This document shows positions 26,219 through 27,609 of a DNA stretch of 64,000 nucleotides, one piece after another. The DNA is taken from positions 1,922,001 through 1,986,000 of the forward strand of contig JABTUA010000001.1 of the NCBI GenBank assembly GCA_015075635.1. Reading direction: 5' to 3'. The notes below the pieces were generated by a model. That model searched no databases. It saw only the letters and a list, made by a program, of their open reading frames with translations, and was not told the DNA's origin. Source of the DNA: Polyangiaceae bacterium. Lineage in GTDB: Bacteria; Myxococcota_A; Polyangia; Polyangiales; Polyangiaceae. The translations under genes and the position numbers were made by a program. How positions within the stretch are numbered: the stretch's first letter is position 1; every line of letters begins with the position of its first letter.

Positions 26219-26530
26219 CTACAGCCCCTTGGGCACGTTCTCGAGGTCCACGCCGTTCAGCGCGAAACGGATCAACGCGCTGCGGTTCGCCTTGGTCAGC
26301 CCCTTGGCCTTCAGCGTGTCCACCATGTCGTCCAGACGCTTGAGGTCGTCGGTGTACATCGAGATGCAGATGACCTTGTAGTGGGTCGGCTTGTCGTCAC
26401 GGGAGCGCTCGGCTCGCGCGCTCGTGATCGGCCGCGGGCTGGCGTAGAAGCTGGAAGAAAGCACGCCCTCGACCTCCTCGCGGTCGAGCACCCTGGCCGT
26501 CGCATCCCTGAAATCGTCTCGTTCGCTCAC
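26219..26530 (-). CDS. Small ribbon-helix-helix protein, partner of the ParA-like ATPase
   Basis: A 103-residue protein that starts at a GTG (26530) after a strong site (GGGAGGTG). Its start overlaps the parA-like stop by four bases (GTGA), so translation is coupled. The N-terminal half is flexible and charged; the C-terminal half (KVICISMYTDDLKRLDDMVD, then KANRSALIRFAL) has the beta strand plus two helices of an RHH DNA-binding fold. In type Ib partition systems a small RHH protein binds the centromere and regulates the operon, so that role is likely here. A plain transcriptional repressor is the alternative. Confidence 0.75.
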   Translation of the reverse strand: MSERDDFRDATARVLDREEVEGVLSSSFYASPRPITSARAERSRDDKPTHYKVICISMYTDDLKRLDDMVDTLKAKGLTKANRSALIRFALNGVDLENVPKGL

Positions 26531-27609
26531 GCCACACCTCCCAAACTGGAAATCTCCGAAGTCGAATTTCCGAGCAGCTCGTCCACGACGTGGTCGTAGT
26601 CGCACGCGGCGCTCGATTCCGGTGCGTATTCGAACAGGGTCTTGCCCTCGGCCGGCGCCTCCTTGACCTTGATGGTCTGGCGCACCGGCGGCAGGCAGCG
26701 CTCGCCGAAGTGCTCGCGCAGGGTCGCCAGGGCTTCGTGGCAGATGCGCGCCCGCGCGTCGAACTGCGTCGGCAGGACGCCCCACAGCGCCACCTTGTGG
26801 CCGAGCAGCCGGTTGACCTGGCGGATGGTGCGCAGCACTTGGCGCACGCCGATCAGCGACAGGTAGTCGCAGGCGACCGGACACAGCACGGAGTCGGCGA
26901 AGACGAGCGCGTTCTGGTTCATCAGCGAGAGGCTCGGCGAGCAGTCCACGATCACGAAGTCGTATTGGTGGCGGGCGGGTGCCAGGCGCTCGGCCAGCAC
27001 GCGATCGCGCTGGCGGCGACCTGCGAGGTAGAGCTCCGCGGCCGCCAGCGTCTCGTTGGCGGGGAGCACGTCGAGGCCCGGGCGCGCGCTCACCACCGCG
27101 TCCGCGACCGGCAGCCCCATCACCAGCACGTGGTAGAGCGAGCGCTCCGAGGAGAGCGCCAGCGAAGCCCCCACGTTGCCCTGGCCGTCGGTGTCCACCA
27201 GGAGCACCTTCGAGCCGCGGGCGGCGAGGCCCGCGGCCACGCTCACCGCGGTGGTGGTCTTGCCCGTGCCGCCCTTGTGGTTGAAGACCGCGAGCACGCG
27301 GGCAGAGCGCCCCTCTGCCGGAGGCGCTGCGACGGCGGGGCGTCGTGCCCCTTCGGCGACGCGCGCTCGGCACAGCTCGCTGCACGCGTAGCGCCGTTGC
27401 CCGCCGAGGTAGAACACCTGCGCGGCAAGCTCGACGGCGAACTCCGAGCCGCAGGCGTCGCAGAGGACCTTCCCGCTGGCGCTCCGCGACAAACAGGCCT
27501 GGGAGCAGAAGAACGCCAGCGCGTCGGCGCCGTCGCAGGTCCGCACTTCCATCTGGTAGCGGAACTGAACCTGAAACTCGGTCTGGCAGATGCTACAGCT
27601 TCGGCGCAT
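26527..27609 (-). CDS. ParA-family ATPase with a duplicated N-terminal zinc finger
   Basis: A 360-residue protein. Residues 1-85 hold two copies of a CxxC...CxxxC pattern: Cys5/Cys8 with Cys35/Cys39, then Cys50/Cys53 with Cys76/Cys80, like tandem TRASH- or MYND-type fingers. The ATPase follows, with deviant Walker A KGGTGKTTT (112-120), Walker A' VDTDGQGN and Walker B VIVDCSP. ParA proteins form ATP-dependent dimers that move DNA or protein cargo over the nucleoid. The next gene encodes an RHH protein, overlapping by four bases, as in partition operons. The fused zinc fingers are not a normal ParA feature. A promoter lies just upstream; the neighbours are ordinary chromosomal genes. Confidence 0.88.
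   Translation of the reverse strand: MRRSCSICQTEFQVQFRYQMEVRTCDGADALAFFCSQACLSRSASGKVLCDACGSEFAVELAAQVFYLGGQRRYACSELCRARVAEGARRPAVAAPPAEGRSARVLAVFNHKGGTGKTTTAVSVAAGLAARGSKVLLVDTDGQGNVGASLALSSERSLYHVLVMGLPVADAVVSARPGLDVLPANETLAAAELYLAGRRQRDRVLAERLAPARHQYDFVIVDCSPSLSLMNQNALVFADSVLCPVACDYLSLIGVRQVLRTIRQVNRLLGHKVALWGVLPTQFDARARICHEALATLREHFGERCLPPVRQTIKVKEAPAEGKTLFEYAPESSAACDYDHVVDELLGNSTSEISSLGGVA

Follow-up and report, generated by a model that had tools for sequence, protein, structure and literature searches.

The window, by which we mean the whole 64,000-nucleotide stretch of DNA analyzed here, carries two overlapping chromosomal genes that encode a ParA-like ATPase with an N-terminal zinc-finger module and a small RHH-type partner. 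The pair and its domains are conserved, the fingered ATPases group in a single clade, and an operator-like palindrome linked to the RHH gene lies upstream. The pair is most likely a vertically inherited chromosomal module of the host class, and not an oddity of a single genome. Judging by analogy, we put at about an even chance the reading that this chromosome-encoded, vertically inherited ParA-RHH module positions its cargo by a partition-type mechanism. Taken singly, none of ParA proteins, RHH partners and FCS fingers is new; the novelty lies in their conserved combination. Our literature search, which lay mostly outside subscription journals, returned no description of a ParA with a zinc finger or treble clef, nor of a comparable ParA-RHH pair on a bacterial chromosome.

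Organization of the locus

The operon consists of the following two genes.

26527..27609 (-), parA-like gene, 360 aa, ATG start; Soj-type ATPase with an N-terminal zinc-finger module
26219..26530 (-), RHH-type partner gene, 103 aa, GTG start

The stop codon of parA and the start codon of the RHH gene share the sequence GTGA. An earlier note on this DNA had described a 103-residue RHH-type gene overlapping in this way, and the ORF at 26530..26219 (-) agrees. According to our reading of the ORFs, the neighbors on the same strand are folA and purH before the operon and an M19-type dipeptidase-like gene downstream.

Two further observations concern other parts of the window. A separate match to RHH_1 (PF01402, E 1.2e-6) was found in a 452-aa frame at 7263-7382 (+). 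The region at about 22700-23150 is highly repetitive, with Arg/Thr/Asn/Ala-rich or Cys/Glu-rich ORFs in several frames, and looks like a short-unit tandem repeat.

The ATPase domain and the fused zinc fingers

The larger protein is divided as follows.

27493..27597 (-), finger 1, residues 5-39 (C5, C8, C35, C39); AlphaFold2 block pLDDT 87-96
27370..27462 (-), finger 2, residues 50-80 (C50, C53, C76, C80); zf-FCS match at residues 47-82
27304..27351 (-), linker, residues 87-102; low confidence, pLDDT 45 for residues 91-100
26560..27303 (-), ParA ATPase domain, residues 103-350; Walker A from K112, with D139/D141 and D222 invariant

The deviant Walker A motif that had been reported as intact is indeed present (KGGTGKTTT from residue 112), and K112, G113, G114, T115, K117, T118, D139, D141 and D222 are unchanged across 75 orthologues. 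The domain matches AAA_31 at 1e-48, its closest solved structure by sequence is Thermus thermophilus Soj (2.5e-44), and Foldseek likewise places Soj/ParA structures nearest by fold, at E-values of 1e-22 or better and an rmsd of 1.3-2.3 A. With its deviant Walker A, its Walker A' and Walker B aspartates and its Soj fold, the protein belongs to the ParA/Soj family. A canonical ParAB lies about 180 kb away, at C1:2126562-2127967, and holds the only ParB match of the genome; no ParB gene stands beside the fingered parA, where a chromosomal ParABS locus would have one. Given that the sole ParB match adjoins a different ParA, the fingered ParA represents a second system. In a phylogeny built from 44 ParAs, a branch with support of 93/89 sets the fingered proteins apart, consistent with one clade and one fusion event, and they cluster by family.

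The eight Cys residues, Cys5/8/35/39 and Cys50/53/76/80, were confirmed in the ORF translation at the positions given earlier, and across 88 distinct close orthologues each of these alignment columns keeps Cys in 85-87 sequences. The module shows two Cys pairs per finger and an FCS-like motif, and Pfam zf-FCS (MYM type, PF06467) matched 31 of 36 finger modules, with a best E-value of 1.6e-9. The module from the window scored 23.7 bits against a cut-off of 22.4, and 19 bits, below the cut-off, within the full-length protein. AlphaFold2 predicts the module as a whole at block pLDDT values of 82-96. Conserved Cys columns, zf-FCS matches and confident AlphaFold2 blocks together argue that the module is not a product of chance. 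Thus, the ATPase has two N-terminal fingers that, as read from sequence, are of the FCS/MYM type, with predicted zinc binding.

In a search of 20 close relatives, the only double fingers were those fused to this ParA, and weaker partial matches occurred in other long frames. Several families seem to carry finger 2 only, since their matches begin near residue 47, and a single finger was read directly at two loci (L155 and L251). The linker spans about 16 residues here; Sorangium, Polyangium and Minicystis have a much longer one, rich in Pro and Ala. In Sorangium cellulosum So0157-2 (L043), the finger region is out of frame with the ATPase, a break that we attribute to a frameshift or a sequencing error; the two are in frame in So ce26 and So0008-312.

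The RHH-type partner

Three parts make up the 103-aa partner: an acidic motif that is almost invariant, a linker of basic character, and a core that is RHH-like. The first and the last were located as follows.

26444..26479 (-), acidic tail motif, consensus DEVxxVLxxxFY; conserved in the RHH protein
26222..26386 (-), RHH-like core, residues 49-103; consensus HYKVICISMYxxDLxRLDxMV...NRSALIR

In the AlphaFold2 model, the core forms helices at residues 60-75 and 83-93, and the block spanning residues 61-100 has a pLDDT of 90-97. The strand of an RHH core is absent from this monomer model, as may be expected given that the RHH strand pairs only in the dimer. No Pfam or NCBIfam RHH model matched the partner, which we count against a partition-type module. 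A structure search with the core returned a sole match (Z 3.5), the MazE-mt1 chain of MazEF-mt1, which we take to be an RHH-type antitoxin. Based on the residue pattern and the model, the partner is probably of the RHH type and, with it, a DNA-binding protein.

Known ParA activators act through basic N-terminal peptides (PMC7993993). The conserved tail of the partner is acidic rather than basic, with a mean charge of -2.5 and no invariant basic residue, and neither a basic nor an arginine-finger activator motif of the ParFG/SegAB type was found in it; this is a second point against a partition-type module. The linker alone is basic (+3.6). Either this linker, or the acidic tail docked on the fingers, could substitute for a basic activator peptide.

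A palindrome upstream of the operon

The following elements were located upstream of parA.

27625..27638 (-), putative operator CGCTTCGATAACCG; includes CTTCGATAA at 27628-27636
27650..27655 (-), promoter-like box TGACAT; about 15 bp after TTGGCC in relatives, by sequence comparison
27671..27679 (-), promoter-like box AACTTGGCC; conserved upstream of parA

Word counting in 69 non-redundant parA upstream regions found CTTCGATAA in 23, against a frequency of 0.8% in random stretches, and AAGYRCTT palindromes in 21, against 1.9%. Merged into one pattern, these words give the inverted repeat CRCTT-N4-AAGYG just 5' of parA, and the copy in the window sits between the promoter-like boxes and the start codon. 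With at most one mismatch, the pattern occurred at 24 of 72 RHH-bearing loci, a count that is partly circular because some of the tested loci had served to derive the pattern, and in 25 of 1360 random stretches. The independent comparisons gave none of 10 loci lacking the RHH gene, and 3 of the 72 RHH-bearing loci for a reversed control pattern. The same element was found in a distant RHH-bearing family (f35), whose loci lie outside the set that yielded CTTCGATAA. Sites of this kind, palindromic or repeated and upstream of the operon, are also those of the ParFG/SegAB type. As an inverted repeat with a 4-bp center, found where the RHH gene is, the element would suit an RHH autorepressor.

The site CTTC-N8-GAAG, which the earlier note had placed at 27621-27636, was correct in position and wrong in spacing. 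It is present in only 2 of the 69 upstream regions, and CRCTT-N4-AAGYG replaces it as the conserved site. The box AACTTGGCC also stands near other promoters that bear CTTCGATAA (L183, L184, L261, L262, L283 and L284), possibly as the promoter box of some sigma factor.

Proposed mechanism

The cycle that we propose is drawn by analogy with ParFG (PMC7308502) and SegAB (PMC12284271). An RHH dimer would bind the palindrome CRCTT-N4-AAGYG in the operon's 5' region, and by doing so would repress its own operon and mark this DNA, perhaps along with a small number of further sites. ParA dimers carrying ATP would coat the nucleoid, the acidic DEVxxVLxxxFY tail would dock on ParA via either the ATPase or the finger module, and the RHH complex would trigger ATP hydrolysis, so that a ParA gradient would move or space DNA or other cargo. 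The FCS-type fingers, which sit where plasmid type Ia ParAs have an HTH, would most likely dock a protein partner. Of the earlier reading as a partition operon, the part that stands is the conserved chromosomal ParA-RHH operon, not a plasmid remnant, with an added finger module; partitioning itself and cargo binding by the fingers are functions that we infer.

Distribution and linkage of the two genes

We surveyed 377 genomes of Myxococcota, a large bacterial group found in soil and water, and every one of them has some ParA match. By hand count, the fingered orthologue is present in 74 genomes inside the host class and in 53 outside it. The RHH family occurs in 93 genomes, nearly always as a single copy. 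The earlier note had asked whether the RHH gene always follows the fingered ParA. Within the class, 73 of 74 genomes with the fingered ParA also have the gene, with one copy each, and the exception ends at a contig edge. Outside the class, the gene was found in 19 of 53 and was not detectable in the other 34, which counts against a partition-type module. At all 110 loci read, the RHH gene lies directly downstream of parA on the same strand, the arrangement of ParFG/SegAB-type operons, albeit not a universal one outside the class; the other neighbors vary between families. Loss of the Cys pairs or of the RHH gene in most relatives, which had been named as the outcome that would contradict the earlier note, is not seen in the host class.

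Family f25, which we take to be Bradymonadaceae-like from an inferred name, has a fingered ParA without the RHH gene in the slot that is occupied in its sister family f33, and the fingers likewise persist without RHH in f51, f58, f41 and f44. Conversely, one genome (G306) has lost parA and retained the RHH gene, a further point against a partition-type module; there, at about 4000-4330 (-) of its contig (L152, G306:C178), the RHH gene follows right behind purH with a shortened tail motif, and its upstream region has no CTTCGATAA element while the promoter-like boxes are still there. Coupling of the two genes is thus strong within one class, while elsewhere they can come apart. Given that the fingered ParA often lacks the RHH gene outside the class, RHH is not obligatory, and given that the fingers persist without it, they probably also serve another partner.

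At five loci in Bradymonadaceae-like and sister genomes (L144, L145, L146, L162 and L155), ParA lies within a conserved run of genes that includes a membrane protein starting with MFRAK or MFRIK, for which there was no Pfam match; other genes of this run presumably correspond to a DUF1343-type hydrolase and nadD, which they resemble.

The persistence of fingers without RHH also favors an alternative, in which the ATPase positions a protein cargo as PomZ, McdA and PpfA do, the fingers bind the cargo or an adaptor, and RHH is a mere autorepressor that was lost where regulation changed. The concentration of operator-like sites at the operon agrees with this, and there is room for positioning of the division site or another cargo in Polyangia: nothing above the cut-off for MinD was found among 20 relatives, and PomX/Y are reported in Cystobacterineae only (PMC7993993). 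On the other hand, the class-wide strict linkage and the invariant tail of RHH suggest a direct partner, and no cargo gene is conserved beside the pair across families. We regard cargo positioning of this kind as possible, and distinctly less probable than the partition-type module.

Further candidate sites on the chromosome

We also looked for further copies of the site. Two exact copies besides the operator were found in the window.

50407..50415 (-), exact CTTCGATAA, inside the ORF of an NtrC-type regulator; conserved in two sister species
62550..62558 (+), exact CTTCGATAA, inside an ORF; conserved in two sister species

Thus, three copies (27628, 50407 and 62550) lie within 35 kb and have matching relative places in both sisters. 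Across the three sister species, exact CTTCGATAA occurs 17, 13 and 15 times, against 5, 2 and 4 times for the reversed word. Of the 17 copies in the genome studied here, 9 are kept in G276 and 7 in G071, and several of these stand in poorly conserved surroundings. This modest excess is to be read against a background of about 29% conservation for comparable AT-rich words in the same regions, and several of the conserved copies fall in coding sequence. A genome-wide network of CTTCGATAA sites is therefore a possible reading of the word counts. The generic palindrome was also considered as a multi-copy centromere and rejected, since it is not over-represented in the genome studied here (49 copies against 90 for the reversed control); the lack of a genome-wide palindrome excess counts against a partition-type module as well.

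Some scattered conserved candidate RHH sites thus lie near the operon, which bears on the idea of a bacterial counterpart of SegAB, i.e., a second chromosome-organizing ParA system in Myxococcota in which RHH would occupy the operator and scattered sites and the fingers would link the nucleoid gradient to another structure of the cell. We hold this idea only tentatively, at roughly one chance in five in our judgment.

The same sites may instead belong to a small regulon with CGCTTCGATAAGCG-like sites that RHH represses and the fingered ParA tunes, with no cargo moved, for which the tuning of FleQ by FleN is the model. The excess over the reversed word and the copies kept in the sister species speak for this, as does their placement: by a rough gene call, 7 of the 17 copies are intergenic, and six of these seven are 27-80 bp before a start codon. 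It is weakened by the background conservation and by the coding copies, and moreover the longer word RCTTCGATAAM showed no clear enrichment and the genes near the sites no recognized common function. We consider such a regulon unlikely.

Finally, although ParA-RHH gene pairs are typical of plasmids (PMC9178275), a domesticated or decaying plasmid partition remnant is scarcely credible and in practice refuted by deep vertical conservation, intact motifs and the lack of homologues of the fingers or the RHH protein in the plasmid collections, and of the RHH protein in the phage collections, that were searched.

Comparison with known systems

A close parallel to the partition-type module is SegA/SegB of Sulfolobales, which also joins a chromosomal ParA and a small site-specific RHH DNA binder in one operon, with imperfect palindromes just 5' of the ParA gene (PMC12284271); DNA binding is predicted in our case. 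However, no finger module has been described for SegA, SegB occupies many chromosomal sites by ChIP-seq whereas further sites are weakly supported here, and SegB is without sequence similarity to bacterial proteins. ParF/ParG of TP228 and delta/omega of pSM19035 likewise pair a ParA with an RHH partner, and ParG, with its flexible N-terminal tail, doubles as the repressor of its operon (PMC7308502). Both systems differ in being plasmid-borne and in having no finger module, and the ParG tail carries an arginine-finger-like motif, whereas the conserved tail motif here is acidic. Soj/Spo0J (ParABS) is nearest in the sequence and fold of the ATPase, with T. thermophilus Soj at the head, but its partner is ParB and not an RHH-like protein.

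Two systems of Myxococcus xanthus also invite comparison. PomXYZ includes a second ParA/MinD ATPase that is used for positioning and not for segregation; the consulted passages of PMC7993993 describe neither fingers nor an RHH partner for it. CdbA and CdbB, from the same phylum, are nucleoid proteins of the RHH type and tied to chromosome organization, but they have 67 and 86 aa and their own operon, and the sites of CdbA are direct repeats with a 4-bp spacing (PMC7156744). Run against PDB sequences, a profile of the partner's family gave no match to CdbA (6SBW/6SBX) at E-values up to 10, a search that distant kinship could escape, so that the identification of the partner as CdbA is without sequence support.

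Implications

Positioning by ParA ATPases is known for DNA, carboxysomes, chemosensory arrays and the division site. The presence of a fingered ParA and its RHH partner beside a canonical ParABS system implies an extra positioning or chromosome-organizing job. The pair is carried by Sorangium cellulosum, Minicystis rosea and Polyangium, among other organisms, and its host genomes are among the largest bacterial genomes. The genomes that are missing either gene offer natural experiments on the contribution of each.
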